Positions 21,285 through 57,010 of a stretch of DNA of 64,000 nt are shown here, piece after piece. Source of the stretch: Rhea pennata. Taxonomy: Eukaryota; Chordata; Aves; Rheiformes; Rheidae. The DNA lies in the NCBI RefSeq assembly GCF_028389875.1, contig NC_084687.1:4686157-4750156 (forward strand). The letters run 5' to 3'. Each line of letters begins with the position of its first letter. Position 1 is the first letter of the stretch. A program made the position numbers and the translations under genes. The notes under the pieces were generated by a model. It was given only the letters and a program-made list of their open reading frames with translations, made no database searches and had not been told where the DNA came from.

Positions 21285-21735
21285 CATGATTCCAGCGTAG
21301 GGCCACAAAGATGATTAGGGGACTGGAGCATCTCTCTCATGAGGAAAGGCTGCGAGAGCTGGGCCTGTTTAGCCTGGAGAACAGAAGACTGAGAGGGGAT
21401 CTTAATGATGTATACAATATCTTGAGAGGGTGTCAAGAGGACAGACTCTTTTTCAGTGGTGCCCAGTGACAGGACAAGAGGCAATGGGCACAAACTGAAA
21501 CATAGGAGGTTCCACCTGAATACAAGGAAAACCTTCTTTACTGTGAGGGTAACAGAACACTGAAACAGGTTGCCCAGAGAGGTTGCATAGTCTTCCTCTC
21601 TGGAGATACTCAAAACCTGTCTGGATGCGATCCTATGCAATGTGCTTTAGATGATCCTGCTTGAGCAGGACGGTTGAACTAGATGATCTCCAGAAGTCTC
21701 TTGCAACCTCAACCACTCTGTGATTCTGTGATCTG
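21285..21735 (+). mobile_element. CR1 LINE 3' fragment
   Basis: About 450 bp of a 5'-truncated CR1 element. It contains 'gggccacaaagatgattaggggactggagcatct', 'gaggaaaggctgcgagagctgggcctgttt', 'caggttgcccagagaggttg', 'ttgaactagatgatctccagaagtc' and finally tandem TGTGATTC-type octamers at 21.717-21.732 kb, the hallmark CR1 3' end. Several indels and mismatches to the usual avian sequence mean it is not recent. The antisense reading frame across it is a shadow and not a gene. Confidence 0.93.
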
Positions 21736-33500: not shown

Positions 33501-35209
33501 TACGGGAAAAGGCAGCATCTCAAAGACGCGATGTAGAAAGAGCTCTCACACGCTTCATGGCAAAGACAGGAGAAACACAGAGTCTCTTCAAAGATGATGT
33601 TAGCACGTTCCCATGTGAGTTATCTAGGACACTTAGTGCCCAGTTCTCTGGCTGAGTATACCTTTATAGTTCCTGTTACTGCAGGAAGTGAGCACTGGAG
33701 GATCGTGTTTTGTTTGCCCTGCCAAGGAAAGGAGGGAAATGAGGAATTTTCTATTATAAACAGGGATGAAGACACAGGGTTCAGAATGAAAGCTAGTTCT
33801 GCCAAGTCACAGGTTCCCACCTTAAACAAAGGCTTATCCTTTTTCCTGATGCTGCAGAAGGCCTTGGCTGATAGGTGCTCTATTCCAGGCCTCCTGTGTG
33901 CTCCCCCCAATCCTGTCTGATGCTCTGTGTAACTGAGCAAGTCGGTTCCTCTCTCAGTTGCCCTGACATTTCTGTGCTAGTCAGTGATGATGAGCACTGC
34001 AGGATTTCCTCTTCTCACAGTCAGGCTTTTGCTCTATTTTGCTGACTGCAAAGCAGTGATGAGAATTTTCACCTTTCCAAAGCTCACAGGGAGCATAGAT
34101 GTCTAAGGGGGACTAAGTGAAGCTTCTAGAAGTGAGGCAATTGAACTTTTATGAAGGTCAGGAAGGAACTTCTTGTATTTGTATGATGTGCCCTTGATTG
34201 GAAACAGAAAAAGGGCTTTGAGTCAGAAAATAGGAAATTAGAGGCTGCCCTTTTTCAGGGCCTCGTATTTCATTCCTGACCCCTGGGAGTGTCAGGAAGA
34301 GTGTGTGTGAATGACAGTGAGGGATTGTTTAAAACTTGAACCAGTGGGAGTGTTTGGTCTTTAAGTAATTGATTATCTTTGTGCTTCACACCTCTGAGTT
34401 GAGGAGGCTTCTCCCAACTTGCTGACTCTTATTTTCTCCAATCCTAGTGATTGCTGCTAGGCCTTTCACAGTACCCTACCTGACTGCTCTTCTTCCCTCC
34501 GAGCTGGAAATGCAGCAAATGGAAGAAACAGATTCGTCTGAACAAGACGATCAGACAGACACAGAGAACCTCCCCCTCCATATGAGCACGGTATGCCCAG
34601 CTTCAGAGATCAAGGTCCCTTGGGCCTGACTTTCTTAAACATGAAACCTGATTCTGCTTTGTTTGTCTTCCTTGCAGCTGGGCAGAGTGGGTGGAAAATG
34701 GCAATGTGGGTTGCATTTTATAGCACCTCCCCAGGTGTAAATGACTAACACTGTTATGGTTCCCTAATGTTCTGCAGGGTGCACTGTGTAATGAGGTTAT
34801 TTGATGCTGGATCATGTTTTTTCAGGGAAACCTTCATTTCAGTGTTAGAGGAGAGAGGACTCTCATAAGATCTCACACTGTTCTCAGAGAGATCTACCTG
34901 TGTCAGAAATCAGAAGTCTGCACTTTTAATGCAGCGCCTTGTGTGCTCCAGTTTGCGTTGACTGCTTCTTACCTCTTTTGCCCATAGGCTCTGTAGTGTT
35001 TGAACTCCTAAACCATTTCTAGCCTAACGCCTAACTTTATTTATGCTTCTATTTTTGTGTAACAGGATGATTCAGGACCTGAAAAAGAAAATGCTTCAGT
35101 GCTACAGCAGAACACCTCCCTACCAGGCAGCCGGAATGGGGAGGACAATGTGATTGACAACCCTTACCTCCGGCCAGTGAAAAAGCCCAAGATCCGCAGA
35201 AAGAAGTGA
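30561..35209 (+). CDS. TAF8: TAF8, TFIID subunit 8 (303 aa, eight exons)
   Basis: Coding exons: 30561-30593, 30941-31097, 31801-31899, 32497-32559, 33026-33150, 33467-33614, 34448-34590, 35066-35209. All introns are GT-AG, phases join and the total is 912 bases including TGA, close to the human 310 aa. TAF8 pairs with TAF10 in TFIID and helps nuclear import and promoter recognition. Visible parts: an Ala/Gly-rich N-terminus; a histone fold at about residues 20-95 (starts NYYLARRRTLQVVVSSLL, ends near TLVEMGF); a Pro-rich linker (about 110-155) with PDPHTYIKTPTYREP; an acidic Glu/Gln/Asp stretch near 225-250; and a basic C-terminus PVKKPKIRRKK, the nuclear localisation signal, which ends the protein. 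Mammalian TAF8 carries a few further residues. The start sits in a YY1 motif and matches the family N-terminus. Identity is secure by resemblance to the known vertebrate protein; no damage is visible. Confidence 0.97.
30747..30799 (-). promoter_or_regulatory. Paired reverse CCAAT boxes in TAF8 intron 1
   Basis: ATTGGCT occurs at 30747-30753 and again at 30793-30799, 46 bp apart, with a GC box and a TGACGC motif between and beside them. This is the layout of NF-Y-type promoters and may mark an alternative start upstream of exon 2. Confidence 0.4.
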
Positions 35210-36075
35210 AGTGTAGCTAGCTGACTGCTCAGAGGAAGTGGAGCCCAGTTCTCTGGCTGTCCTGGCAGATCACCTCTGCTGCTGTGGGTGAGGGGCATGA
35301 CAGGAGACAGAAGAGGCAATCAGGCTGGTAGAGTGGCAGAAGCAGAAATATGATCTCTCTCTCTCTCCTACACTCTCATCCTGGTTTGAAATGCTCCCTC
35401 TTCCCCTCCACTCCTGCTGACTTGGAATGGTGAATCGTCAATTCTTAAAAGCGTTGGAGGCCACTTGGTTACAGATAGGAACTGTTCCTTCTCTTTGACT
35501 GGCTTTACTCTCTAAGGAGAAAGGGCACAAGGGTTCTTGCTGCTTAGTGCTTCCCAGCAGGCACTACAGAATACACGGGCATAATTTGTTTGTGTCTGTC
35601 TCACAGATTAGAAGAGAATCTTCTGCAATTGACCTCGTCTGGCCTTACAATCTAAGGAGCATGTGTAACAGAGACAGAAAAAGCCTAGAGAGGTTTTCTG
35701 TTTTTAAAATGTCTGTATTGTTGGCAGGTGAAAGCAAATAGACTCTTCTTTTATAAACTGAAGGCGTCTGATATCTTGGTAAGAGAACAAAGTGTAAATA
35801 CAGAGCTAAGATGGCTTTTTATGTTCACTTTTCTGACTGCAGCTGCACTTCTAACTTAAAAGCACTAAGTGTAGTGTTTACACTGCCCTGCTTTCAGATT
35901 GTTTTTTAGCAGTATGAATGGTAAGATTTAACAGCTGCTTCAGGCCATTTTTCAGTTCCATTGTTAGTTTCAACACAGCACAAATCCTTTGAGACTTCAT
36001 GCCTTCGCCAGCTATTTGAAAGATGCTGTGCTGAAAACCTTGGAATATGAAATAAAGCTGTATTGATTACAGTCC
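35210..36075 (+). other. TAF8 3' UTR
   Basis: An AATAAA signal at 36051-36056, followed by a T/G-rich stretch, is the probable end of the TAF8 transcript, giving a 3' UTR of about 0.85 kb. A second AATAAA at 36943-36948 could serve a longer form. Open frames in this interval are short and unsupported. Confidence 0.65.
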
Positions 36076-38108
36076 ACAGGGCCATTCTGTTGATCACACT
36101 TTTTTATTTTGTTCTTTCTCAGATATGGGCTTTTATCTACAGAATTCTCCCCCTACTCCCCTGCCTTCTACCCCTGTCCTAAGCATAAGCTTCCTTTTCA
36201 GCAGTGAAAACGAACTATGATGAGAGTATTGTAATCATTAGCTGGTTTTGGAGGCCTTTCCTTTAATCATCTTTCAACCTTGGGCAAAATACAGGTTGAC
36301 TTCCTTTGACAAAAGGCTCCTGTTTGGTCCAGGCTCCCAAGCATGATTAAATGAGGTGGATTCAGTAGTCCCTACTACCACTCAGCTTTTTCTCATTCAT
36401 GCTAGTTTAAAATCTCTTTATGCAGTAGTTAAGACTACATCTTTCTTGTAGATCAAACATGGTCCTGAGAGGCAGCAAAGGCTATGAAACTGCCTGCTAC
36501 AAATTGCCAGACTACTTTTTGCTTCCCAGAATAATAGCTAAGTGCAGGAAGTCTGTTGCAGTCAAGGGGTAGATAAAAGTTATGTGTATATGTGTTCACC
36601 TCAGTTCAGTTAAACAGTTCTCGCAGGCCTCCCTCTTCCCCAGGTGGCATCACTCAGGGAGGAGGTAGAAAAGGAGGAGGAATTGTTTCAGTGGAAACAG
36701 GCATTCTTGCCAAACAATCTGAAATGACATCTCTAGCAAGAGTCCTGCGTGTGCCATTGTCATTCCTGCTGGTGCCTTGGTTGTACAGAATAATGAATGT
36801 ACAGAGATACATTGTGTATGTATGTGTATATAAAAACTTATATCTATTTTTCTTTACTTGAATTATGCATTTTTCGTAATTACAAAATCCCTCGCTGGGT
36901 AGGGGAAAAATGTAGAGTGAAAATAGTAATTTTTATGTTCATAATAAAATTTCTTTTATGTCCTACAAGGAAAACTGATTGAGTCCTTGGAATTTGGAAA
37001 GAGTGGAAAAGCATGTGAATGGAGCCCAGCTATGTGTTCACTTGGGTCTTGGCAGAGCTCTTGCAGAGCATTCAGGAGTCTTGTTCTTCCCTCTGCATCT
37101 CTTCCTTACGCCACACAAGACTTGGCAGCTGAGAAAGTTGGGATTTTCCTAACACAAACTTTGTTTCATTAGAAATATGCTCGCTGAAGACAAAGTGCCT
37201 ATTGAGGTATCATCAATTTTGTAAAAACTTCATTAGATGGTTTTTCCAATCACAAGTGGAACATTTGGTGGAGAAGGGTTGCAGAATTCTAGGTACTGCT
37301 TTTACATCTTTCTTTCATACACATCTATTTTTTTCCTAATTAGAAAATGAGATAGAGGGAGGTGAGATACGCAGCATCAGCCATGAAGACGGTGGTGGAC
37401 CTGGAAACAACCATAAAAGCCAGGCCTTAGGAGAATAGCTTCCAGTGAGTCATGCTTTCACCTTTGAAAGGTTGTCCCAAAAGAGCAAATGAGAATCAGC
37501 AACTGCATCCCTTCTGGACAGCTGCAACTGCAAAGTAGCCTCTTGTGGTTGTAAGGGAAGGGGCCAATGTGTAGAGGGAAAAAAGGCTTTGAGCAGCTGT
37601 TGCAGTGGGACAGAAAGTGGGAAACCAGAAGAATGTATTTTGGTTGTGTTATTGAAATCACACTACATGTGAAATTGCTACAGAAACGGCTAAAGAGCTA
37701 CAGAAATTATGAAGTCTGCTTTGTGATCAGTGGCTAGATTGAATATTGCTTGTTATTAATATTCCCCTGAGATGTGCAGGTATGGGCATGTATGTGTGCA
37801 TGAAGGTATGTCTATATAGGTCCTAAGGTCTGAGTTGTACATTACAAAAACAAATGATGATCAGACCAGGACCTTTCTGTTTCAGATGACACTTGTTTTC
37901 ATGGCCATGTTCTTCACGAGCAGCGCGAAGCTTGCTCTATGCTCAGAAACGACTTCCTCACGTCAGTAGGTACAAAGCTAAGAGTGCAGAAGCACATCTT
38001 GCAGGCCATCTGGTCTGTCTTTTTCCAGCACAGTACTCTTCGCCTGGGATATATTACTGCGTGCTGATTTAAAATTGTTGTGGACTGTGCTTTATTCTCT
38101 TTTCACAG
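36076..38108. other. Intergenic between TAF8 and the chitinase relic
   Basis: I looked for chitinase-type exons on the + strand here (for example the WVGYDN and DxxDxDxE segments) and found none. One open stretch at about 37.886-37.969 kb follows a 'tttcag' and reads as a hydrophobic leader (MTLVFMAMFF...), but it has no good donor. Confidence 0.5.
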
Positions 38109-38238
38109 ATGTGTTTTCTGAAGGCTCATGGTGGAGGAGCTATGGTCTGGGCCCCTGGCAGGGGTGACTTTCGTGACTCTTTCAGCGGAGCGAGAAGCTA
38201 CCTGCTGCTCTTGAGGTTGAAGTCTTCACCTCTCCCAG
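38109..38238 (+). pseudogene. Lone GH18 chitinase-family exon (OVGP1/CHIA-like relic)
   Basis: After the acceptor 'tctcttttcacag' an open exon reads FLKAHGGGAMVW, then GDFRDSF, then YLLLLRLK, and ends CCCAG|GTGAAG. This follows the penultimate exon of chitinases (WLKxNxxGGAMVW...DDFxGxFC...PLxxxLK). It is 130 bases, while the same exon of the CHIA-like gene in this window is 142; both start in phase 0 and leave one base over, so four codons are missing. The family Cys after F is Ser. No other chitinase exon was found on this strand. It points toward PIFO from the opposite side, the position and orientation of OVGP1 in mammals. Likely a decayed OVGP1-type gene; a functional short gene seems unlikely. 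Confidence 0.6.
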
Positions 38239-38339
38239 GTGAAGACTGGCAGCGCTGCCGATTTGGCGTCTCTGTGGTGCTGGCGAGGGGTAGATTTGGG
38301 GGGGGGGGAAGCCCCCTGTGTTGGTACGGGGGTGGGGAG

Positions 38340-38410
38340 GGAGGGTAGCCATTTTGGTGAGGGCCGCGCTGTGAGGCGTCTCCATGGCGACGCAGAGAAG
38401 ATGGCGGCCG
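38340..38410 (+). promoter_or_regulatory. CpG-rich promoter with RFX-like and YY1 motifs
   Basis: Within a CpG-rich patch (about 38.24-38.66 kb) lie GCCATTTT (38348-38355, reverse YY1 type), GTCTCCATGGCGAC (38378-38391, close to the RFX X-box palindrome GTTGCCATGGCAAC) and AAGATGGCGGCC (38399-38410, canonical YY1 downstream element). The arrangement is that of a TATA-less promoter firing to the right. Confidence 0.5.
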
Positions 38411-38522
38411 CAGAGGCAGGCCGCAGAGGGCCCGCTTGGCCAAGTCCCACAGGCCGGGGGCACCCACTGCTCTTCCCCTCCTTGCTGGCCTTTTTTTCCA
38501 TAAATAGATGGCATGATACCAG
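38401..38522 (+). CDS. Candidate first coding exon of an unidentified gene
   Basis: An ATG inside a YY1-type AAGATGGCGGC element opens a 40-codon frame starting MAAAEAGRRGPAW and running to a good donor, CCAG|GTAAGC. CpG context and donor make a real first exon plausible. I recognise no protein and could not find downstream exons on the + strand. A transcript would run antisense through PIFO. It could equally be a non-coding first exon. Confidence 0.3.
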
Positions 38523-38565
38523 GTAAGCACAGGCAGAAGTGACAAATGCCTCTTTTTGAAGAGAT

Positions 38566-38571
38566 TTTATT
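38566..38571 (-). terminator. PIFO polyadenylation signal
   Basis: AATAAA on the minus strand, 100 bp past the PIFO stop codon. The PIFO transcript therefore ends right at the CpG-rich promoter patch. Confidence 0.6.
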
Positions 38572-38670
38572 TTGGGAGGCAGAGTGGTGTGGACAAATGT
38601 CTCCAGAAGAGCAGGGGGTTTGGGAAGAAGCCCGAGGCGGCTGCCGGAGCGGGAAGGGGGGTGTTGCGGC

Positions 38671-41287
38671 TCAGCCGTAGTACAAGCTCAGGTAGGCTAT
38701 CCGGTTCCGATGTTTCCTGAATTCCCTGTCAGCGATCAGCTAGAAGAAAACCAATATCCATTAGATGTTCCTCAATGCATCGCTCTGCCAGGACTCAGTA
38801 GGAAATAGCTTTCATACCCCTTAACCAATATTTTAAGTTGGAACGTTTTCCTCCCTGGTGAGCTGCACAGAAAAGTCTCTTGCTGTTTGGCTGCAATCTT
38901 AATTCTAGAGCAAACTTCCTGATGGAAGTTTTTTTTTTTCCCCCAGAGGGCTGTAGCCAGTTTCACCACACTTGGTTTCAGCAAAGGGGTTTATCTGATA
39001 GAAAAATAGCCATGGGGCTTGTGTCCCAGGCTAGTACAGCCACACATCCAGCAGGACAGTGAGGAAAGGATGACAAAATGTTTTTAAGCAATCATCTGAT
39101 TTCCTTTGTCAGTAGTAGTCTGCAGGGAATCCCATCCCCTTATCCCTGCCGATATGTTCGATACCTCTGCTTTTAGTGTCCTCTTCACTGGCATTGGCAC
39201 TGAAGACCAATCTGGAGACCCAAACTTCATCGGCCAGGTGATTTTTTTGTGTAACAGCTTGTCTGCTTCGTAAGTTCCAGGTCTAAAAGGTTTAAGCACA
39301 ATATCATTTCTCTAACAGGAGCGTGATGTTTGTGATATGCTAATTTACCAGTCCTACCTTAATCCATGGGAGAAATGTATGTTGTGGTCTTCTAGTCATC
39401 CTGCTAGGTAAAAAAGACTAAACCGTGTACTTGCAGAGGGATTTTTCAAACATACAAAGGGTTACTGGGAACACAGTTGCCTATCTCCCATTTGTACCTT
39501 AGTATTTGTCTCTGCTAGTGCTCCTGCTAGTTACTAAAGCTGTAAGAAAATGAGTTATGTTACCCAGGGAAAAATTCTCTATCCAAAGGCTTATCTGGAA
39601 ATCGTGGTGATTTAATGGAAAATGGGGCATAGGCAGGCTGATATTTTCTCTCTCTCTTCCACCATGACTGGTACATTCCAGGGCCAGGAGTCACAGTCTG
39701 TAAAAGAGAAAATTTCAATACAGAAGATTTTATGTTCCACAAAACATTCCTAAGTGGTCTGATCAGCAGCCAGCTGGATATTATAGAACTGCTGTTCAAT
39801 TAATACTCTGGATACTCTGCTAGTGTAAAAACAGCAGAACAAGTCAAATAGGCACTCGCTATTGCTTACCCAATGTGTGTGTGGAAGTAAAGAGTACGTG
39901 TATGACTCTAGGCTCAGCACAGGAATTTACCTGCCCCTAGGTTACGTATAGGGAGATCTATGATTACTATACATTTGGTTTGTATTTGCCTGTCTGCTAA
40001 GGGCACAGATATTGAAAAGAGGACTGGTTTTCCAAATCTTTCTCATTCTCCAGCAGAGTTTGTTTCTGGAAAAAAAAAAGCCTCACAACCAATGAAAGTG
40101 AGAATAAAAAGTGAGAGCAACGGATGTCTGCAGGGGATGGAAGACTCCTGAGGGACTTCTCTGGTCCCCACAGGCGGCTGCATCATTTCAGTTCTCTTTC
40201 TCAAGTGGAACTGAAGCAATGCGTGGAGCTCATGCTGTGCACAAGTGACATGCACTCCCAGCAAATGCGATCAAAACTGGTAGTGTATGGTGGGAACAGG
40301 CTACAAATTCTAAAGCTGTGGCTCTGCCACTTTGAAGAGTGCTCTTCTTACCTGTGGCTCTGGTATGAAACGTTGAGCTGTTCTTGCTCCTATCACATAG
40401 CCTCTCTTGCTTTGTGGCTTGTGAGCCAAGGAGTATACCAGGCTGCTTTTCTGTGATTCAAAAGCAGAAACATCTTACGTTTGCAACAGGGGAAGGCCAG
40501 AACTTCTGTACTTGAGCAATCTCTCTAAATTCTCTGATTTCTCACACATTTATATTGCTAGGGCACTTTAGGACCTTGAAGACTAGTACATCTAGTTGTA
40601 ATTTTTCCAGGATGAGAATGTCTTTTCCTAGGTATCTGCATAGACCATGTAAAATGACTTTGCAGGACAGGTGGTGGGGATGCCGTATCTGGCTGACCAT
40701 AGTCCTATTGCTCTTATACCGTATGTCTGCTGTAAAGGAAAAACTCATTATAAAAGCTGAAAAACTCACCCTGTGATTCTGATAACAGCCTGGCCCAAGC
40801 CAAGGGTCTCCCCTGATAGGTATCATCTGGATCCCCAGCCTGTCTGGTGCATAGTGGAGAGGGAATAATTTTCGCTCTTGACATGATCCAAAGGAAATCT
40901 GCTTCTGCACACCTGTGAGGCCAGGAGAGGGAAATGCCACCTGTGTGATTCATCCCTGGGGAGACAACATCTTAACTGCTTCTCCTCATTTCCAAGTGTG
41001 CTCTGTTTCATGAAGTGAAGCATCTTCCCATCTCCCAGCTGGTAATTTCCCCTGCCCGCAGACAGTTATGAGGAGACAGCCCTTCGGGGAGCTGTTCCCT
41101 TCTGCCACAAAGGCCTCTCTGTCACCAGCCTGAGCAAAGAGGTGCCTTGTGGACCAGTTGTGGGGCAGATAGCTGGGGGAGCATGATGCCTCCAGGAAGC
41201 TGTGTGAGAGGAAAAGCCCTCCTGCCCGTAGCCCCCATCAATGTGTGCCTTGCACGGCTCACCTGTCAGCTCCCACTCGTCAATCAT
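38671..41287 (-). CDS. PIFO: PIFO / CIMAP3, protein pitchfork (195 aa, six exons)
   Basis: Exons in transcription order: 41287-41263, 40912-40770, 40450-40352, 39697-39564, 39282-39165, 38739-38671. All are GT-AG with consistent phases; 588 bases including TGA, against 191 aa in human. The product is a small protein of ciliary microtubules and the basal body, linked to cilium disassembly. Family landmarks are SFGSCQERKLFP (exon 2), GPGCY (exon 2), GYVIGARTAQRF (exon 3), TPGPGMYQ (exon 4), PGPGTYE (exon 4-5 join), TWPMKFGSPDW (exon 5) and the C-terminus FRKHRNRIAYLSLYYG. The PGPGxY motifs are the short repeats of such ciliary proteins. Exon 1 (MIDEWELTG) was chosen because its donor, phase and length fit; its sequence differs from the mammalian N-terminus, so that start is the least certain part. 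Confidence 0.92.
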
Positions 41288-41334
41288 GCTGCCTGTGAGC
41301 TTGCGCAGAGGTGTTAGGATATGTGTGTACTCCA

Positions 41335-41348
41335 GTTGCTATAGACAC
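41335..41348 (-). promoter_or_regulatory. RFX X-box-like site upstream of PIFO
   Basis: GTTGCTATAGACAC on the + strand matches the X-box palindrome (GTTGCCATGGCAAC) at 10 of 14 positions, with one strong half GTTGC. It lies about 50 bp upstream of the PIFO start codon, where RFX sites of ciliary genes usually sit. Confidence 0.45.
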
Positions 41349-41704
41349 GGGGGTGGTGGGGGGGTGGGTACTTTGCTGAAGGGAATGCTGATGACTGCAG
41401 TTCCTAAGAGCGGCATGAAAAGAGGATTGGTAAAAACCTTGTGGACTGGTGTTTCCTAGAGGGGACTATCCTCCCAAGAGCTCAGAAAGCTGAACTCTCT
41501 TATTTGAAGCCCCTGAAAAGGGACAGGACAGGATGGGACAGGAATCTGTGTGCCTGTGTTTGAAATACTGTTTCTTCCACACCATCCTAGAAACTTGCCT
41601 AGCTGGCCTACCTCCTGCAGCCAGGAGCAGCTATTGGCATGGGATGTGAGTAGGTGACAGAGGACTCTGTGAAGCAGTTACTTGGTTATGCTGCCAGGAA
41701 CCTT

Positions 41705-41852
41705 GTCTGTGTGCTTCCCCATGGCTCAGCCTGATATTCCCCATCTCCTCCTCCTCCTGTTTTCCCTCTGCCCAGCTGGCATGCAAGGCCAGTGAGAAAA
41801 CCCAGAAAAGGCCAGTGTGGGGCTGATGAAGTCCAGCTTGTGGGTTGCTGCC
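41705..41852. repeat. Duplicated flank A, copy 1
   Basis: About 148 bp, just beyond the chitinase 3' end, that recurs at 48398-48545 with clear similarity over its whole length. Shared blocks include ATCTCCTCCTCC, GCTGGCATGCA, AGTGAGAAAACCCAGAAAAG, GCCAGTGTGGGGCTGA and AAGTCCAGCTTGTGG. Confidence 0.85.
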
Positions 41853-41956: not shown

Positions 41957-41962
41957 TTTATT
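41957..41962 (-). terminator. Chitinase polyadenylation signal
   Basis: AATAAA on the minus strand, about 65 bp past the chitinase stop codon at 42027-42029. This is the short 3' UTR typical of the family. Confidence 0.65.
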
Positions 41963-42026: not shown

Positions 42027-45000
42027 TCATGACCAGTTGCAGCAGTAGCAGCTGGTATCAAAGACGAGGCCGGCCTGGCAACTCTCCAGATAGGTTTTGC
42101 CGTCGTCGCAGTTGTAGAAGCTGCTCTTGCTGGATGGATCTGGATAGATGCCGTTGGTCTTGCCAGCACAGAAGCCGCTTCCAGTGGAGCTGCCGGGATT
42201 GCTCCCTGAGCTCCCGCTCCCACTTCCAGAGCTAGGAGCCTCAGTGACTGGAGGATTGGGTTGAGAAGGGGGCACACAGCCTGAAATAAGAGCAGGGAAG
42301 GGATTACTGGTGTCTGATGGTCTCTCAGCACTCCCTCCCTCCAGAGTCCCATCTGTGGTGTGGGGTCAGCAGACTAGACTTTGTTCCCCCAAAGTTTGGC
42401 AGGGTTCATATCTGGCCTTGGAAACAGTTGGCCTCAGGTCTCAGTCTCACTCTTTTGTCCTAGAGGCTGTGGAGTGAAGGGATCTTTCCTGGGTGGTCTG
42501 TAGTTGTGACTCCCACAGAGAGTCATTATCCTCCAAGCCCCTAGACTTAAAAGTTCATGGCTCTCTGAAACCCGGCATCAGTACTGAGCTAGAGTGTCGC
42601 CTTCAATAACGCATGCTGCTCAAGTTACTCACTGCTGCTTTGCAGGCCAAGAGCCGCCTTCAGGGTGGAGATCAGGGGATATTTGCCCTCTTTGCAGAAA
42701 GAGCCAGTGAAGTCATCCATAGCAAGGGACCATACCATTGCACCTCCATAGTTGTTCTTCTTCAGCCAGTCAGCCTGTTCAGTGCCAGAGGAAAAACCCC
42801 AATTAGTCCCAACGCCTGCTACTGCAGAAGTCCTCCCAGAGCATTGCTAGTACATCCCCGATTCCCACTGTACCTTGATGTTAAAGCTCTTGATGTTGTC
42901 ATAGCCAACCCATGTGCTGCCCTTGTAGGCATAGGGCACGTCCTGAGGGGCATCCCAAGCCTGGGTGGCTCCGGAATCCAGGAATGTGCAGATCTATGGA
43001 GAAGGGAAGAGAGAGGTATTCATTAAGTGTCCAAGATAAAAGGGCAGTTGGAATATTCGATGGGTCCCTTGTTAAAAATTCCCTGCTGGGTATTCAATGA
43101 CTATTGTGCTTGTGGCTGCCCAGATGTGAGGGAACAAATATACCTCATAATAAGCCAAGGTCCCAGCCTGTCTTGTGTAAGGTCCAGCAGGCCCAGGTCC
43201 TGATATTGGTGCCCCAACAGCAGTGTCAGATGGGTTTTGGAGGTCGAAGTTGTGTCCATATGTTGGGAATCCAACAAGGAGCTTCTCAGCTGGGGCGCCA
43301 TTGCTCTTCCAGTAGTTCATAGCATAATCCTGTTGAAAAACCGTCACAGTTCGAGTCTGTGCCAGGATTCCCGGGGAGGAGGACCGGTTCTTGAACTTCT
43401 CGTCACCGCTGTCATCGCAGACACAGGATCCCAATGTGTACTTACGACATTGAAGTAGATATAGCTGCCGGTGTCAGCTGGGCCTTTGTATAGAGGGCTG
43501 TTCTCTCCAGTGTGTCCATCCCATGACCCATGGAAGTCATATGTCATCACGTGGAAGTAGTCCAGGTATCTGTGGAGAACATTGCATGCCTCTATGTCCT
43601 GGCCTGTTGATTCATCCAGTATTGCTGGTTGCTTTAGTGCTGTCAGGCTTATAGCGCCCCAAGCCAGGCCTGTACTGGGCCCAGTTGGTGAAGTAACATG
43701 ACAGCACATAGGCAGTACCTGCAGAGAAATGCAGGAGGTGATGTGGAGCTGAGCTGTGCTCAGGAGAAACTCCTTCCTCACAGCGGAGTATTGTAACGAG
43801 CCCTGACAAGAAATGACTGGGCAATGCTTCCTTGCAGGGAGAGGAGTTCAGAGAAAGTGAGGTAGGGTCGGCTCTCCTGCTATGAACTAGCTAGCCAAGG
43901 ATAAAAACGGGTTTGTTTCCTTCCTACTGTATTTCAGGAAAGGAATCCGTCCTGGTACCGGTTGTGCACCCAGACTCAGGTGCCAGGGTGGTTCTGGCTG
44001 CTGGGTTTCTTTACCACACAGAGTCTTTCTCCTTTGTTGCCAGGTAAGGCAGAATGAATCCCTGACGAAGTGCCTGAAAGGTGGGGAACCGCCTGCGTGT
44101 CTGCTGTGCAATTTGGTTGACCCGTCTTTGTAAACTTCTGCCTCGACAAAGCTAGCGGCTGTGCTCATGCTTCGTTCAAACTGAGCAGGAAGGGGATTCT
44201 GAGAGCAAAGGTGTGTGAAGAAGAGTGACATCTTTGCCCTGGGGAAATGGCCTGCAATGCATCACAGAGCTTTGGTCTTCAGAGACACCATTGCTACCTG
44301 CCCGCCTGCCTGCCCGCCTCTCCTTCCACCCCACGCTCTTTCTAGCTCGTAAGTCTGCTGCAGTGTTGTGTATATGCTCGTGCTGAAAAGGGGTTTTGGG
44401 GAGGAAGCACATACCTATCTGGGCGTTCAGCAGGAGTGCCAGACCTGTAAAGAAAAGAGCGTGTAGTTAGTCTTTGACCTGAGAAATGGGGTAATGGCTG
44501 TACTCGCAGAAGCCCTCTGGCATAACATTGTCTGTTGTGCAGACAGTGAAAGTGCTTCTATCGCTGGGCCCATTTTGCTCCTCTTGAGCAGGACCGTTCT
44601 GAACCCAACATAAGCTGTATGTCAGGTGGCGGTTCCCTCTGTGGGAAGTGGAGGCACAGGAGAGCTCACGCTCGTTAAGGGCTGGGCATTCTGCCGGATT
44701 CGTTCAGCCAGGGTTGAGCAAGGGGGGATCTGAGGAGCCGCAAGCATGTCTGGAAGAGCAGAAACTCTCTGGTACATACTTGGCTTTTCAGACAACAGAA
44801 ACACTTCTATCAGTGGGTCCATTTCTGCTCCCCAGTGCCATTTTCTTGGTCCCAGCATCGCGTTTCAATTGTAAACCGCATTAAATAAAGAATTTGCGTT
44901 TCTAAAGACAATCAACTCCCAAATTGCCTCAGTACAGAAGCATCGCAAACGTAAATGCTATTGCTTCTCCTCTGATAAAAGAGAGAGCAGCCCGTTAAAT

Positions 45001-45123
45001 CCCAGTGGAAGCCCTTGTATACCCACCCAAGGTAACAGTGAAACACCTACTGATACTCGTCCTAAAGGTAGAGAATGAAGTTCTCAAGCAGGACTTACCG
45101 GTGAGCAAAATGAGCTTGGCCAT
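42027..45123 (-). pseudogene. CHIA: CHIA-like acidic chitinase lacking its catalytic middle exons
   Basis: GH18 chitinases are secreted enzymes that cut chitin. Retained pieces, 5' to 3': 45123-45099 and 44444-44415 (signal peptide MAKLILLTGLALLLNAQ), 43718 to about 43639 (start of the barrel, CYFTNWAQYRPGLGRYKPD), 43569-43446 (YDFHGSWDGHTGENSPLY), 43329-43144 (EKLLVGFPTYGH), 42993-42874 (GATQAWDAPQ, WVGYDNIKSF), 42774-42633 (YGGAMVW), 42280-42027 (Ser/Gly linker and chitin-binding domain with six Cys). These join in phase except between the third and fourth pieces. There the family's next segments (DPCLCTH..., the NxxLKTLLxxGGWN exon and the DGLDFDWEYP catalytic exon) are absent. Only about 70 bp separate the pieces, the third has no donor, and the frame meets TGA at 43612-43614 after 53 residues. 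Either a genuine deletion pseudogene or an assembly collapse between paralogues. The other splice sites and frames are clean, so any loss is recent. Confidence 0.85.
44505..44858. repeat. Local duplication in chitinase intron 1
   Basis: About 105 bp at 44505-44612 resembles 44757-44858. Shared blocks include GCAGAA...CTCTGG, CAGACA...GAAA, CTTCTATC, GTGGG/CTGGG TCCATTT and TGCTCC. The two copies are well diverged. Confidence 0.6.
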
Positions 45124-45161: not shown

Positions 45162-45189
45162 TTTTATACACCTCTCTCGTCATGCAAAT
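45162..45189 (-). promoter_or_regulatory. Chitinase promoter: TATA box and octamer
   Basis: On the minus strand TATAAAA (45168-45162) lies about 39 bp upstream of the start codon, so the 5' UTR is very short. The octamer ATTTGCAT (45189-45182) lies 13 bp further upstream. A TATA promoter fits a highly expressed, tissue-restricted secretory gene. Confidence 0.65.
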
Positions 45190-45500
45190 CTTGTATCAGC
45201 AGGGACACACAAACATGTTGATATTTGATAAAGATAATATCCAGAGAGAGCGATACCAATACGATGGGCCTTAACACTGCAGCTGGAGAAACAAGTATTA
45301 TCAGGCTGTGCCTTTTCATGGTGCTGCCAGTTAGAGGAAGTGCAAGATTAGATGTCTTTTCCTTTTAGAAGTTTTGTTTACAGCGAGAGGTCTTGTGTCA
45401 ATATTGGCGATCACCCAGTAATAGATGGCCGAAGCGTTCAACCTTGCATTGTCATTGGGTCTGCCCAAGGGTGGGAAGTACTGCCAACGGAAGGCGGGCG

Positions 45501-46004
45501 TGCAAGGGTTTTCTCAGCCTGGCTAGGGCCATGGGCGAGGGAGGACTGAGCAGGGTTTAGACTCCCAGGAGGGTGCTTATCTGGGGACCACGGCAATGGA
45601 GTCACACGCGAGGAGAGGGTTTGCTGCTGTCACGTTGTAAAAAGTGGAGCAGGATCAGCTTCTGCTGATCAGTTCCCCCATTTGGACTTGGGACTGTTGT
45701 TGTCAGGAAAGAAGAAAGGGAAGGTGAGAAGAGTCCTTTAACACAGGGCCTTAAACGGTTTGTGTACTGGGGCCCAAAGAGTGCCTGCGTAGTGGCACGA
45801 TGAGCAAAGGTGCCAGTAACTTGCCAAGACAATCTTCTTGAGGCAGCTTGATTTCTCAGGGGGCAAGCACTGTGAGGGGGAGCCCAGGGACAGAGCATCA
45901 TTCAGGTTACATTTGCTGCTGCACGTATTCCCTCCTCCTTGCTCAGCTGTTTCCCAACCTGAGAGGTTGCTGTGTTGCCCAGCATGTGTCTGTTGTCTGA
46001 GTGT
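45501..46004. repeat. Duplicated flank B, copy 1
   Basis: Sequence upstream of the chitinase promoter that recurs at 48546-49099. The strongest block is 45831-46004 against 48926-49099, about 90% identical by eye, including GGGGGAGCCCAGGGACAGAG and GCTGCTGCACGTATTCCCTC. The first block, TGCAAGGGTTTTCTCAG, and CAGGGTTTAGACTC are also shared. A middle part (about 45.60-45.83 kb) no longer aligns. Confidence 0.85.
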
Positions 46005-48397
46005 ACCGCGAAGCCCCTTCAGGAGGAATAACAGAATCGCTTAAGTTCTACATGAGCTTGTCCGTGGTCGCTCTTGTGGTTTTTTTTAAAGGGCTGTGTT
46101 TGGTCTAGCTTGAAAGTTTCATTCTGTTGCTTTCAGGATGCCAGGAGTATTGGAATGTGACTTTTCAAAAGGTAAAGGGGAGTGCTGAAAACGATGCTTT
46201 TGACTCAGAATATTTTTTCTGCATCCTTATTTACTCTTCAGTTCAGGTAGAGACTCAAGTCTTTTATTGTGTTCTGATAGAAGGGTTTTGGGTTTTTTTT
46301 CTCACATGCCATTCCCTGTCAGGGCTTGTGCAAATGGTGGAATAGGACACAACCTACCTATGCCCACTTCCTCTGTGCCGAGCCGTTTCTTGGTTCATGT
46401 TAAGATGATGTGAAGGTGAATTTCTAGGAGGTCACCTAGACTTGGTTGAATGCGAGCCTGGAAAAATCCCACAGAGTTGCCCATATCACATGCTGGCCGC
46501 TGACCCACGACCCGCAGATTAAAATGCTTTAGACTTGTATTGCAGATTTTGTGTACACAGCAGATGAGATATGGTGGATGATTAGCAAGACAGACACCTT
46601 CAAGAAGTATTTTCCCAGTGTCTGTGAGCTGATAAGGTAACACAAAGCATACAAGACCAGGAGAAATAGATTTGGGAAATTCCCACACTCGGTGACTTTT
46701 GGAGTCTTGCAGGAGAAGGTCTGTTACGCGGAGAAGGTGTTTCTGAGCGAAGAGGAAAGCATTTGGCAAAGGGTCAGGGAAGATAATTTGGGCGTGTGTG
46801 GAGGCCAAGATTTCAGCTGGGCAAATTCTGGAGTTTTCCCTTGGTAGTTATTCTGCCTTCATTCTGTCCTAAGAAAGCCCTTTTGCTCTTGGTTTCAGTG
46901 GGAGGGCTGGCAGGCCCTGAGCGAGGGCGGGAGGATTGGTCCCTGTGAAAGGGATTCTGCATTCGAGTTAAAAAAAGAGTGGAGTATTCAGACGGAGACC
47001 TTGCCTGTTGTTCCTGTTGCCAAAGCACTGGGTTTAGAGGGATCCAGCCTTCTGGGGTGTTTCTGCATGAGCTTCACTTGATGCATGGTCGAAAACTGTC
47101 CTTATGGTCACTGCATTATGGTCATTGCAGGCTACGCGTGTCTCTGCCCTTTAGCTATCTGGAGGACTCCTTTCTGCTGGGTCTTGGAAAAAAGAGATGA
47201 AGATTTTCTCGTTCTCTCCAGCTGAGCAGCGTGCGGGTGTCGCTTTCCTGCCGCCCAGCTCCAGGATGACTCCTTTGGCGTTTGCATCTTGTCAGAGCCC
47301 AGGCGATTTGTCAGGTTCAGGCATGGGGCTTGCGCAACCCTGCACCCGTCTGCTGGGAGATGGCTCTGACAGTTGACTCTCAGCCAACTCTCTTGATGTA
47401 CTGCTGTTTTCCAGGAAGATCTTAGCCATCGTGGCCTAACAGCCTCAGTGTACGTGAGCCATCGCTTTAGAGATGTTGTTTTGCTCTACCTGCCCTTGCT
47501 TTTGAGCTTAGGCAGATCACTGTGGAAGGCTAAACCGAGGAGAAATGTCAATGTCAGTGAACTGGTGTGATGTGTTTTGGATATCAATATCCTTGCCGTT
47601 ATCTGGAGGCACAGGTACTGGTCTCCTGGAACAGGGAGGCTGGAGCTGATGGCCAGTGCAGGCATTTGTGCTGCTGGAAGTGTTGCAAGGGCCAAGTTTC
47701 ACGTTAGCGATGCAGGGATGTATAAAAGGTAGAGGGGCTTTTGGCTAGATACGTGAAAGATTTGGCTTTGGATTTTGTGGGACGCAAGGCTGCTGGTTGG
47801 CCATGCAAAGATGTGGTTGAGCTAGCATAAATGGATTCTGGATTTATTCTTTGCATGTGACAAGCTCTATGATTTTGCCAGTAAAAGCTAAGGGGGGGAG
47901 CTAAATGCCTGTTCTTGGTTGCTGACTGGATTACCGCCAAAGAGACATTCAGTTTGCATCAGGAGAAGGCCAGAAGTATTAGAGCGTGAGACGTGGTCAT
48001 CGAACTAATTTCTCTTTGCTACGCAGAGGCCTTTTTGATGAACCTTTGTTGTGAGCGGGGGAGGAATGGTTGTGTGATTCAGGCCAGAGGCTGGCACGAG
48101 AGTGCATCAGGCCCTGTTCCTGATCAGGCCGTGGAGTGGAGTTGAGGGGATCTGGGACACCTCACTGAATCACCCTGTGAACTGCTGCTGAACACCCGGC
48201 TGAACCGTCCCTGCAGCCAGAGGGGGAGTTACAGCAGCTGTCTCAAGGCTAGAGCACCAGGGCAGGGGGGACCTCTGAAGATGGGTATGTTTGGAGGGTA
48301 ACTTTTGCAGGAGGGGAACACTTGTTGCTCGGTCGATGCACAGGCCTTGTATGATGGCTCTGTGCGGAGCCAGTCCCTTGGCTGTGCTACGGTTATT
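46005..48397. other. Intergenic between the duplicated blocks
   Basis: No exon recognised. I looked for chitinase exons on both strands here and saw none. The longest open frame (46395-46808, minus) has no family features. Weak similarity to 41.65-41.70 kb may extend duplicated flank A leftwards to about 48.36 kb. Confidence 0.55.
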
Positions 48398-48545
48398 CTC
48401 TGTGTGCCCTCTCGTGGCACAGCCTGATACTCCCCATCTCCTCCTCCCCCTCTTTCCCCTCTGCCCGGCTGGCATGCAGGGGCAGTGAGAAAACCCAGAA
48501 AAGGCCAGTGTGGGGCTGACTGAAGTCCAGCTTGTGGATTGCTGC
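48398..48545. repeat. Duplicated flank A, copy 2
   Basis: Paralogous to 41705-41852. It is joined directly to flank B copy 2 at about 48545/48546, with the bases TGC shared at the join. In copy 1 the two flanks are 3.6 kb apart with the whole chitinase gene between them. Confidence 0.85.
48407..48420 (+). promoter_or_regulatory. CTCF-like motif
   Basis: CCCTCTCGTGGCAC resembles the CTCF core. The matching bases in the other copy of this duplicate (near 41.715 kb) read GCTTCCCCATGGCT and do not fit. A single motif only. Confidence 0.25.
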
Positions 48546-49099
48546 TGCAAGGGTTTTCTCAGTTTGGTTTGGGCCATGGGAGAGTGACAGAGCATGGGAA
48601 TAGGTTGCCCGGAGAGGTTGTGGAGCCTCCTTGTATGGAGATATTCAAAACCTGCCTGGATGCAGGAAAGGAAGTGACCCTGATTGAGCAGTAGTGTTGA
48701 ACTAGGTGATCTCCAGAAGTCTTTTTGAAGCTCAACCATTTTGTTATTTTGTGATTCTGCAAGTGAGGGAGCACTGAACAGGGTTTAGACTCTCAGATGT
48801 GAGATTTACCAAGGATCACGGTAATCTGGACCCTTTTACTGCAGGCGTCCCGTCTCTCCAGATCCAGGTTTTGTGGATTGTCTTTCACCCACACCATTTA
48901 AATTTGGTGTCAGTTCAATGGAGAGAATCTTCTTGAGGCAGCTTTATTTCTCAGAGGCCAAGCACTATAAGGGGGAGCCCAGGGACAGAGCATCATTCAG
49001 GCTGCATTTGCTGCTGCACGTATTCCCTCTTCCTTGCTCAGCTGTTTCCCAAACTGAGAGGTTGCTGTGTAGCTCAACATTTGTCTCTTGTCTGAGTGT
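48546..49099. repeat. Duplicated flank B, copy 2, split by a CR1
   Basis: Paralogous to 45501-46004. It is interrupted after GGGCCATGGGAGAGTGA by a CR1 3' fragment and resumes at about 48.766 kb with 'gagggagcactgaacagggtttagactc'. The CR1 is absent from copy 1, so it arrived after the duplication. Confidence 0.85.
48585..48765 (+). mobile_element. CR1 LINE 3' fragment inserted in flank B copy 2
   Basis: About 180 bp with CR1 3' landmarks: 'aataggttgcccggagaggttgtggagcctcc', 'tggagatattcaaaacctgcctggatgc', 'gttgaactaggtgatctccagaagtc' and 'ttgtgattctgcaag'. Comparison with the paralogous site gives its limits almost exactly. Confidence 0.9.
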
Positions 49100-52000
49100 C
49101 CTCTTTGCTGGGGGCAGTCAGTGCTCCTGACCTGTAACTCTTTGTTTTAGAGGGTGCCTACTGAGGAACAGAATTATGAATTTATTTTTTCTCAGCCTCA
49201 ATCAGCTGTTACAATCTTTCCATACAGAGTCTTCTATGGTACTCTATGATTTTTTTGCTTTTGCATTGCAGTGGTGCTCAGGTAGATTTCTGTTAGGCTT
49301 GTTGTAGCTTCAGCTTGCATTTACTCAAGTCTTTCATTGCTCCTCTGATGCCTGTGAAGGTGTACACACAGGTGTGTACTTGCAGTGCTGGCGGGGAGCC
49401 TCAGGTTGCACATGTGAAAGGCTGCAACCTTCTTCTCCCAAGATCAAGGAGAACTTCTAAGCAGAAAGCAGCCCAGCAGCTATTGGTGAAGAAGGTGGTT
49501 GTGGGGAAACTGGAGCTTTAAAAACACTTTTTCTCTTTCCTTTTCTCTCTTCTTCCATGCAGGTTAAGTTAATATGACTTCCCTTGTGGCAGAGAGGGCT
49601 CTCTAAAACTTACCCTGAGAGGAAGTATAGGAATTGCTATATTCTACCTTGTCAGAATTTTTTTTCTCTTTAACTATGGGTAGATTTCTAGCTTTAAATC
49701 TTTTCTTTTTCATCTGTTTTCAAAACAGGTAGTATGAATAAGAGGAGCAAATCAGAACTGTAGAAAGTCAGTGGGAGCTGGTCTACTGAATGTTTCTGCT
49801 GAAGAGAAAGGTAATGATAGGAGCGAAGACATAAGGCTCCTCTTTCAGCCAGCTTGCCACACTTTTCTCTAGTCACTTGGAGAATCTTTTAATTCTGTGC
49901 TTAAATTCTCTATAATGCTCTGAGAAAAAGCAATGAATGGGGGAAATCATGATGCCAATTTTTTAGTGTGAAGCACTTTGGGGGTGTTAAATATGATCTG
50001 CCATTATGCTAAAATATGATGAACTTTAAAACCTATGCTCTGTACTTGGCTGGGGAGGGGTTTCTGATATGGTATATGCTCTGGGAGTTCTGTATTGAAC
50101 CTCATTATGCTATGAGCTAGAGGGGTTGAATCTCCTGAGAAATCAACATGCTGTATCATTTGACATAGGGTACAGCCTTCACTGATGCCAGCAACATTAG
50201 TGTTCAGCTCTATCTCAATCTTGTTCCCTAGCCTCTTGAGAAACTATCACTGCCAAGAGATCACCTGATTGCATGAATTACAGGAAGGAAGAAGTAGAGT
50301 TAAGGAAGAACTTTCTCTGCACATGTAGATTCTAAATTTGCAGTTAAATTTTCTCTAAAAGCATTGAAGGAGACAAAATAAAAGCACAACTGTAACAGAA
50401 TGTAGTTTTAACTAAGGAGAACATCTTCCTCCTGGTTTGGAAGAATCTGTTAAAGTCAATAGCTGGGTGTAGAGTTGGCCCATGTAGAGTTGCCATGGAT
50501 TTTTCCCAGAGCCTCATATCCTACTTCCTGTCAAAAATAGAAATAAATACTTTGAGGATGGCGTGCTATAGGCAATTAAAAGATCCAACAGTAGGTGTCA
50601 ATATTGCTTGCTCTTCCCTGCTTTTTCAGCAGTCTTCTGGTAACATTTAGAAGAGAAATGTGCGTGTGGGCCAGAGAGCTTAGTTGCTTCTACTTTTTGT
50701 TTAATGACAGAGATGTGAGATCACCAGGACATTTTGTACACTTCCTAATAGAAATGGAGTGTTTCATTCTTGCTAAAGAAAAATACAAGAATAGAAGCAA
50801 ATCATTGCTTTAGAGCTGTCTAACCTGCAAAAAACATGACTTTTTTAAAGTGAAAGAGGAGCTATTAAACACAGCTGCTTAGCTGTCCAAAAACTAGCCA
50901 AATCATTAGATGTGACAGAATGCCCTCATAGACATAAGGCATCTTGTTGATAAAGAATCCACATTCACCTTCTGTCTCCTATACGCTTCCCTACCAACAG
51001 AGTAAGTTTTTTTTTTTTTTTTTTTTTTTTGGGGGGGAAAGAGGGCTTGAGTAGTCAGATTACAGAGGGAAACTCTAATTTCACAGGCTGCATGTTATGC
51101 TTGTGCAGCCTTTACAATAAGGCTAGTTTTATTCAAGCACTGTGTTAGTTACTTTAATGATAAATATTACATCCTGACAGCAGTTCAGCAGGTTCTCCTA
51201 ACTACCTGGTTTTGCGAAAAGCTCTATATGATAAAATGCTTATCAAATATAAAGATCAGAGCACTCTTATCTACTCCTTCCTGGCAGACTACATCTGCCA
51301 GGCAGACTAGAGCCATCTCCTTCCTGGCACATAATAAGCAGCTTCAGACTCCTACCCAATGCTTACTGTTTTTGGAGCTCAGCTTATGCTTCCAGGCCTG
51401 TAAAAGACAATATACTTCCTGATGTTAGCTTTCATTTCTGCTGTTGCTGCAATTGCTCAGTCGGAAACATGACTTTACAGGTGTATGATCTTGGGTCTCC
51501 AGGTATCTTAGTGCATGTACTGGACTGGCAGGCTTTGAGCAGGGCCAAGGGATGAGAGTTGGAAGTACTGACTCCATTTCAACAACAGAGTGACCTCTTA
51601 ATCTCACTCCTAGTTCTCCGAACACTTTCCCCTCCTCTTTTCTGGAAATGGCTCTGGTGCAATATGTCCTGCTTCAGTATATTTTGTTTTTTCCATGTGC
51701 TTTCTGCAGATCCTTGCTCTCAATAACCCTGAATTTTGGGAGAAGAGATGAGGAAGAATAGTGTTGTGGGTATTGGTGCAAACACATTGTGAATGTGCTT
51801 CTATATAATGACTTTACCTAAGTCTTTCCATAGCCTTCCTTTTTTGTTAATGTAGTACTCAATATTTGTTTTACAAAGTATTTGAATTAAGTAGCAGTGT
51901 ATCAGATATACGCCTGTGCTTCTCCTGTATCATAACACATTGACTTTTACCCAGACTTCTGCAAACCAGGCCCTTAGGTAGATGCCAGGTATCTCTTAGT

Positions 52001-55000
52001 GCAGACTTACAAACTGAATCCTCTAAGAGTAGGATAAAAAAGATTTGTCATTTATTTTCCTTAACTGGGAAAAACTAAGGCACAAAGAACAAGAGACCAT
52101 CCTGAGGTTAGAGTTGAACTGAAGGAAGAAGGAATAGACTTGGCATACTGAAATGCAATCAGAGGTGCATGGAACATGTTTAAAGAGAGCTGTATAGGTC
52201 TCCTCCCAGGAGTTTAGCTGATATTGCTGGTTTGTAAATGGCTAACACCTTATAATAGCTGAGCTTGGTGGGTGATGACCTCCTTGAAAAAACTGCCCCC
52301 CTCTCTTCAGGAGCCAGACAGAATTAAGAAAATGTGGCCTCAATATCACTGGCCAAACGTGAAAATCCGGGCAATACATCCAAATTGGTATGTGTACACT
52401 TGCTTAAGTTACTGCCACTCTAATGGGATTCCTGCAAATGAAGTCATAAAAAAAGATCTCTCCTGTCCCCAAGTTCCATAACCCTCCAAGTTCCAAGGAA
52501 CCCTTGGATCCTTCACAGCACAGCACACAAGAGCTGACGGTGGCTGGTGTAATAGGATCTCTGTGTGATGAGGATAGGGATGGAATGCCTGTGGGTCTGG
52601 CATCTGCTCAGCTGCCTGACTGAGCTTCGAGGGGGATTTGAGAGCTGCCCTAGTCCAAATCTTGCTTTTTGTTCTTCTACAGAGATCCTGTTGGTCTAGC
52701 TGAAGGGTGCATGTTGCTGGTTGCTTGAGAACTGTGCAGTGCGAAGTGTATGTTGAAAGGCCAGCGATGCTACCTACAGTGTGATACGGTTTGTCCAGAA
52801 GCAGAGGATGTATGGGAGGTGTGCATCTGTTTGTGTTCAGATTTATGGCAGGAATTTTGGAGCTTTAAAGATCCTTGGATTCCCTCCTCCTAAAGATAAG
52901 CACAACGTGTAGGCCTTGGGTGTGGACTTTGTGCAGACAGGCATTCAAGGCACTTACATAGGACAGTCAGGAGAGAGTCCCAGTTCTTTGATACTTATGA
53001 TACCATTTCATTTGTATAAAGGTCTCTGCTTTGAAGCCTGGTTTTCCCAGTACTGACTCCTTGTTACAAGGGTTGATTTTTTTCTGCTTCATGCCATCTT
53101 CCTCTGGCATTTGGTTTCCCTTCTCTCTGCAGCTCACAGAGTAGAACTGAAGAACTGCTGATTTTCAGATACCGACCATTCCCTGCCTCCCAGGGGAAAT
53201 TCTTGCCTTCTGCCTGTACATTCCCAGAAATATCATCTCTGACTCACTCTGATTACGAAATGCTGGAGTTGTTTCCCCTGCTACTTATACAGAGTGTCAT
53301 CGCTTTTGCGCGGTCTGTTGCCAGGTATTTTAGTAGGATCTGGAAGAGTCCTTTTCATGGGGAATTTGATGCAGTATTGCAATGTCCCATTGCATATTCT
53401 TTCCTTACAGCACATCTTTCATCTTTCCTTCTTTTCTATTGGCACTAAGCTGCTATAATTAGGCACTGTAAACAAATCTCAAGCTTCTCTGATGTGAAAC
53501 ACTCAGACTTGGTTTCTGACCATCCTGTTCCTCAAATAAACCTTGACTCTGTACTGCAGGCATTTTACTAATGTTCTCTAGTGATCAGGACTGAGGCAGT
53601 GAGTTCACCAGCTCTCTGTGATGCTGGCTAACCAAAGGAACACAGTGCTCTCTACATCTAGGAATGAACTGCAGAGCTGGATTATCCCCCCCATCCTGGT
53701 ATCAAAATGTTAGTCCCAAGAATAACTTCCCGGTGTGTCAGCAAGGGAGAACGGGTCTTTGAAAGGAGGCATAAGTGCATATTCTACAGATTCACAAATT
53801 TCTCACTTGCACATAATGTCTGTGCCCAAATGCAGGTGTATGCAGGTGAGCAAAACATACTGTCCAAAGGTTATATATGCATGAACAAATATGCACATGA
53901 GTGTTATTTTAGCAAAGGAAATATCACATGAAGAATACCTTTTCAGGCGCTTTGGATTTTTATTTCCTTTCTCTATTTTTAAGCACCTTGTGTCACATGC
54001 AATTTTTTTCTGAAGTCTGTCTTTAAAACACTGGATTTATTAAAGCATATAATCTTCAAAAATCCACTTAAGATTGGTAATGCATATCGGAACTGTTTGC
54101 AATCTATTCATTAAAAAAAAAAATCATCACCAAGCATTCAGGTCTTGAACTTCTTGCAGTCAGGATTCAGAATGGCAGGTTCAATCAGGATTGCATGACC
54201 TGTTTTCCCCTTACATCTCAGCCCAACAATCCCTATTATCTTCAAGGAATGAACCAGATGCCCTAGATTGGGAGCTGTGACTAGCTGGGAGTATTGAGTG
54301 CTAATCCATCACTGAATGCTTTAGCCATCACCAAGCAGGTTACTGAAGTATGGCCATCAACTAGTATTTGTGTTGCTGTTCTGAGCTCTAGTCCTCATAA
54401 GTAAATTATAGCAGGGCTCCAGGAAGTTCTTTTGGGGCTCATCCTTTCTGCTCTGAATCCTTCAGAGGAAACTCTGCCCCCCAACAACATCCCAGCTTAT
54501 CTAATTACTTATTAAACTCTTTTTTCTGGTTAGCTGACATCTGCCCATTTCCAATTAATCTTTGTTCACAAGCTCAATAACCTGAGCCATCTGTATAGGA
54601 AAGAGAGATAAGCTTTCTATTAAACATTTACAAGGCACAACAAGAGCGTATTGAAGCAGCAGTTGCTGAGACAACCCGGCGGGCGTCTGCATGCAGGAGA
54701 GTCACTGACCCTGTGCTTCTAACTGTCCCGTTGTAACTGAATAAGAATAACTTAACCCTGGTTTGTCTAGGGATGTGCACACTATCACAGCACCAGCAAA
54801 AGGGTAGTTGTCCCTTTTGCTTACATCCATGAGCTTTGGTGCTATGTGAGCATGATAAGGGCTTTTAAAATAATAGCATTTTGAGCCCTAGAAATTCTAG
54901 CAACCAAATAAATAGTCTTTAGATACAACCCATCAAACTGCATAGGCAGTGGCTCTAAATCCTCTTTAACCTCAAACACTTAAAATAACTCAAAAGTCAG

Positions 55001-56735: not shown

Positions 56736-56739
56736 TTAC

Positions 56740-57010
56740 ATGCTTTCGTTCCTACGGGCAGAAGCACGCGGGCTTTCCTTCTTTGGAAGCGTGGTTCCGC
56801 TCCGCGTGCCCCCGCGCGCTGCCCCCCGTACGAAGGGCCTAGCCCTGCTCTGTGGCCGGCTCCCACGTCACATGTTTTTAAGAAGTGGCTGCCAGTTTCC
56901 TGCTGGGGAGCTGCTGGCGCTGACGTGTGCGGGCCGGCCACGTCAGACGCGGCCGGGAAGGGAAATGCAATCCTTTTTTGGCTGTAGACTACAGCCAAGT
57001 CTATTGGTCT
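56740..57010. promoter_or_regulatory. GC/CpG-rich block with three TGACGTG motifs
   Basis: A local CpG-rich block carries CCACGTCA (56863-56870), TGACGTGT (56921-56928) and CCACGTCA (56938-56945). TGACGTGG is the UPR element bound by ATF6/XBP1-type and CREB3-type bZIP factors. The last two face each other across a GC-rich spacer. An ATTGG (reverse CCAAT) follows at about 57.003 kb. No coding exon was recognised nearby, so this is a promoter without a known gene, or an enhancer. Confidence 0.45.
56978..56998. repeat. Perfect 10+1+10 palindrome
   Basis: TTGGCTGTAG, a central A, then CTACAGCCAA, an exact reverse complement. Its outer ends TTGGC and GCCAA are NFI half sites, though the spacing (11) is wider than the usual 5. 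Confidence 0.9.

Follow-up and report, generated by a model that had tools for sequence, protein, structure and literature searches.

A probable recent pseudogene of acidic chitinase (CHIA) in an avian Chia array that appears to be shrinking

Introduction

The stretch of DNA analysed here (the window, 64 kb) contains a minus-strand gene for CHIA, the acidic chitinase with which the stomach digests chitin; the beginning and the end of this gene are preserved and the middle, including the part expected to carry the catalytic site, is absent. This raises the question of whether the gene was broken in the animal, is spliced into a new, non-catalytic product, or is whole in the animal and was damaged in the assembly. 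The typical avian Chia gene has 11 coding exons, and such genes generally sit between BTG2 and CIMAP3 (PMC13029220, excerpt). The number of chia copies differs among 48 bird genomes, in which gains and losses have occurred repeatedly (PMC6487185, excerpt).

Results

Eight CHIA exons are left on the minus strand, namely exons 1 and 2, part of exon 3, and exons 7–11 (Table 1), such that the 11-coding-exon structure typical of avian Chia is not kept. The 3' exons were numbered by counting back from the last of the typical 11 and, on this numbering, the parts missing would be the rest of exon 3 and exons 4–6. All six remaining donors carry GT and all seven remaining acceptors carry AG, and exons 7–11 are present up to and including the six-Cys domain, as the earlier note had described for the downstream exons. 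That note had also reported two intact signal-peptide exons followed by about 80 bp of the next exon, for which we found exons 1 and 2 and 78 bp of exon 3, and a gap of about 70 bp, which we measured at 71 bp. Translation from the ATG likewise agreed with it: the broken end of exon 3 is without a donor, and the frame runs for 53 residues before reaching TGA. The introns are thus retained and the coding frame is destroyed, as in an unprocessed pseudogene.

Table 1. Positions of CHIA parts and of related features in the window.
Feature	Position	Strand	Remarks
Chitinase exon 10 relic, decayed	~38113..38237	+	Acceptor-like and donor-like borders read by eye; aligned core 38132-38222
Flank A, 3' flank of CHIA	41703..41851	n/a	Recurs at 48396-48545, 89% identity
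AATAAA polyadenylation signal	41957..41962	-	
CHIA exon 11	42027..42280	-	Linker, six-Cys chitin-binding domain; stop codon included
CHIA exon 10	42633..42774	-	
CHIA exon 9	42874..42993	-	
CHIA exon 8	43144..43329	-	H269 kept
CHIA exon 7	43446..43569	-	YLDYFHVMTYDFHGSW, D213 kept; exon number inferred, counted back from 11
Gap between exon 3 remnant and exon 7, 71 bp	43570..43640	-	Deletion joint and end of intron before exon 7 with acceptor AG; in-frame TGA
CHIA exon 3 remnant	43641..43718	-	Truncated after about 78 bp, without a donor
CHIA exon 2, signal peptide end	44415..44444	-	Borders AG and GT
CHIA exon 1, signal peptide start	45099..45123	-	Translated head vs mouse acidic chitinase 1-44, E 1.7e-19
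TATAAAA box	45162..45168	-	Upstream of CHIA start codon; exact match
Flank B, 5' flank of CHIA	45501..46004	n/a	Recurs in three pieces within 48546-49099, 86-92%
Scar, flank A copy and flank B copy	48396..49099	n/a	Joined at 48545/48546

We compared the translated head and tail of CHIA with proteins of solved structure, among which acidic mammalian chitinase is closest to both. Residues 1–44 of the head align to residues 1–44 of mouse acidic chitinase, its best match, while for the tail, of 274 residues, the best match is human acidic chitinase (E = 3.2e-109), and tail residues 1–188 align to mouse residues 203–390. Because the head ends at mouse residue 44 and the tail starts at residue 203, residues 45–202 (158 aa) are gone. 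Consistent with this, the tail covers positions 172 to 317 of 317 in the Pfam GH18 profile (PF00704), and the 44-residue head gave no Pfam match. The earlier note had placed the DxxDxDxE motif of an active GH18 chitinase in the missing part, and this agrees with the absent residues, which span positions 133–140, the place of the catalytic motif. A tblastn search of the whole window with human residues 45–202 returned two matches (E = 2.4 and 8.1), neither of them convincing.

The retained part is in good order. The translated chitin-binding domain has all six of its Cys and matches CBM_14 (PF01607) over profile positions 1 to 47 of 53 at E = 1.6e-8, its 35 bits exceeding the cut-off of 22.1. 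Both D213 and H269 are retained in the translation, in mouse numbering, which we assumed to equal chicken numbering. H269 is the state found in chicken Chia2, which has an optimum pH of 2.0, with residue 104 as the second determinant (PMC13029220, excerpt); residue 104 falls within the lost part of CHIA. The gene therefore resembles the avian Chia2 type (GH18 plus CBM14) in lying beside CIMAP3, in keeping D213 and H269 and in having the CBM14 domain, but differs from it in that, with exon 3 truncated and exons 4–6 missing, residue 104 and the catalytic motif are both absent.

At the joint, the middle of exon 3 is connected to the tail of the intron that precedes exon 7. When the gap was compared with the window by blastn, 13 other matches were obtained, the best of 16 bp at E = 0.40, and none is a convincing templated source.

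Both flanks of the gene recur further along the window. Flank B returns as three pieces, 45501–45542 at 48546–48587 (86%), 45537–45568 at 48765–48796 (91%, or 75% if extended to 61 nt) and 45827–46004 at 48922–49099 (92%), and the copy of flank A borders directly on the copy of flank B, with nothing in between. Divergence between the flank copies (K80) is 0.090 over 178 sites and 0.124 over 124 sites. The simplest reading of this joint is that a tandem copy of CHIA was deleted whole; the converse, that the gene-less joint is the older state and the gene arrived later, we think less likely. Within the flank copy of the scar there is also an element of about 180 bp (48577–48760), 74% like 21542–21736, which is presumably a CR1 end.

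A further chitinase trace, resembling exon 10, lies beyond CIMAP3 in the orientation opposite to CHIA. It matches CHIA at 67% over the 91 nt of its aligned core (blastn, E = 1.8e-7) and, as protein, matches the CHIA tail at 41.7% (tblastn over 64 kb, E = 0.008). Its local alignment score is 31. In a control with tiles of the window, from which those close to CHIA's own exon 10 were excluded, no non-overlapping tile scored above 15 (the adjacent rows, with scores of 29 and 17, are overlapping tiles of the relic site), and the highest score among 1000 mononucleotide shuffles was also 15. A PDB search up to E = 10 gave 17 matches, every one a chitinase-family chain and none significant alone (best E = 0.1); those named signal processing protein, SPP-40, BP40 and MGP-40 we take to be chitinase-3-like proteins. 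No Pfam match was obtained for the relic. Searches for more chitinase exons returned little else: in tblastn searches of the full 64 kb with head and tail, no match outside the gene other than the relic reached an E value below 0.8, and blastn of the gene against 1–30000, 34800–41700 and 45300–64000 (E up to 1) found the relic only. The window thus preserves remains of three chitinase copies, each of them incomplete. The flank-to-flank joint and the exon 10 relic suggest a chitinase locus that is shrinking.

Among the neighbours, CIMAP3 was located with a human query at 38.68–40.89 kb on the minus strand. This setting, as given for avian Chia, and CR1-like repeats make a bird the most likely source, ahead of other sauropsids. 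A query for BTG2 gave two chance matches in the 64-kb window (E = 2.6 and 5.8), and the gene was not found there; hence BTG2 may lie beyond the 64 kb, and further Chia copies may lie there too. The exons of TAF8 occupy 30941–35179 on the plus strand (human query), with a CpG island at about 29.75–31.5 kb. Beyond 49 kb no gene was recognised by eye among the listed ORFs of at least 55 aa, and a CpG-rich stretch at 56501–57000 has no gene recognised in it. A search of the window for RNA families at the gathering threshold and for tRNAs gave none.

We simulated neutral decay of the retained exons and splice sites with an assumed indel-to-substitution ratio of 0.1, a frame-breaking share of 85% among indels and 67% transitions (2000 runs per point). 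The share of runs in which these parts remained undamaged was 70.5% at 0.25% divergence and fell to 25% at 1%, 6% at 2% and 1% at 3%. The intact remainder of CHIA thus fits a recent break. This leaves a break that is recent relative to the tandem duplication, continuing constraint on the exons, or a faulty assembly.

Discussion

We consider it probable that this CHIA gene (acidic chitinase, GH18 plus CBM14) was recently inactivated by a deletion within it, in an avian Chia array that is shrinking, and of the three readings offered in the earlier note, that of a recent pseudogene is the one that fared best. Specifically, one deletion would have fused a point well inside exon 3 with the final part of the intron ahead of exon 7, taking out the coding sequence for about 158 residues, catalytic motif included, and with it, presumably, the function of the enzyme. 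Any CHIA transcript would be expected to be degraded, since the stop after 53 codons precedes several exon junctions. In a separate event the neighbouring tandem copy would have been removed whole, and a third, reverse-oriented copy may have decayed to one exon, the break in CHIA itself presumably postdating the tandem duplication. The apparent removal of a whole tandem neighbour and the survival of a third copy as one fossil exon go beyond what the earlier note had described. Taken together, decay of the reverse copy, deletion of the tandem copy and loss of the catalytic exons are three separate losses that could have left the animal without any chitinase from the array, a possibility that we regard as rather doubtful.

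The main rival to a pseudogene is misassembly, in which the animal's gene is intact and the stretch with exons 4–6 was dropped or misjoined at non-homologous positions. The remaining exons, the splice sites, the TATA box and the AATAAA are intact, as they would be in a living gene, and an undamaged remainder would be just as likely with a whole gene and a wrong assembly; furthermore, tandem gene copies are hard to assemble. Against this, the window contains no N, and no second gene copy that could have confused an assembler was found in it, only the flank pieces and a relic exon of 67% identity. Nor does the joint have the form that a collapse between tandem chitinases, the mechanism suggested in the earlier note, would leave: a homologous collapse joins equivalent positions, whereas a joint from mid-exon to intron tail is non-homologous, and such a collapse is accordingly disfavoured. 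We therefore rate an assembly error of any kind as unlikely, if still the foremost competitor.

A deletion polymorphism is a special case of the inactivating deletion that we favour, and its probability overlaps with that of the latter: the haplotype in the window would be broken and others in the population whole. No further inactivating change is seen in the retained exons, as such a polymorphism would lead one to expect, but a single haplotype is in view, and we give this version a fairly small chance.

Much less probable is a working, non-catalytic gene, in which a cryptic donor in exon 3 would yield an in-frame, secreted product that combines the C-terminal portion of the barrel with the chitin-binding domain and acts as a chitin lectin. 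Five GT sites were scored in the broken exon 3 and the gap, and two of them are in frame with exon 7, CCA/GTACAG (intron of 106 nt) and GCT/GTCATG (133 nt). These score 50 and 47, however, as compared with 70–92 for the six real CHIA donors, and the highest score of the five (64.5) belongs to CAT/GTTACT, one of the three sites that break the frame. Four GC sites are in frame with exon 7 too, the scoring having covered GT sites only. A TIM barrel deprived of 158 residues would be of doubtful folding, which, with the weak in-frame donors, counts against the new splice product proposed in the earlier note. A new CHIA splice isoform is accordingly unlikely, although chicken Chia1, inactive in assay, is nonetheless expressed and captured on chitin resin (PMC13029220, excerpt). 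Skipping exon 3 is out of frame and leads to an early stop.

Loss of CHIA in birds has already been published (PMC9296559, PMC4290368 and PMC13029220, excerpts), and the gene described here is most likely one more recent pseudogene of an ordinary kind. In penguins a single CHIA is present as a pseudogene (PMC9296559, excerpt); it is comparable to the present gene as a bird pseudogene and is described with two shared inactivating mutations, which may or may not include the present deletion. CHIA function is lost in five threatened birds (PMC4290368, excerpt), and a figure of PMC13029220 marks the clades in which pseudogenization is expected (excerpt). Chicken Chia1 is likewise a Chia paralog devoid of activity, which for the present CHIA is judged from sequence, but the two differ in what they have lost: Chia1 is without exon 11 and keeps its catalytic domain, whereas the gene here keeps exon 11 and has lost 158 residues of that domain (PMC13029220, excerpt). 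The CHIA pseudogenes of placental mammals (Emerling et al. 2018, excerpt) similarly form a paralog family with lineage-specific losses, though in another lineage, and the losses at the present locus are largely deletions. The passages and paper listings consulted name no bird CHIA broken by exactly this deletion.

CHIA copy number serves as a genomic record of insect eating, and the losses seen at this locus may also bear on diet. An annotation pipeline could list here a CHIA gene that is unable to be catalytic. The locus keeps the mark of each loss, as a flank-to-flank joint, a fossil exon and a clean internal deletion, such that the losses may be dated and traced across species.
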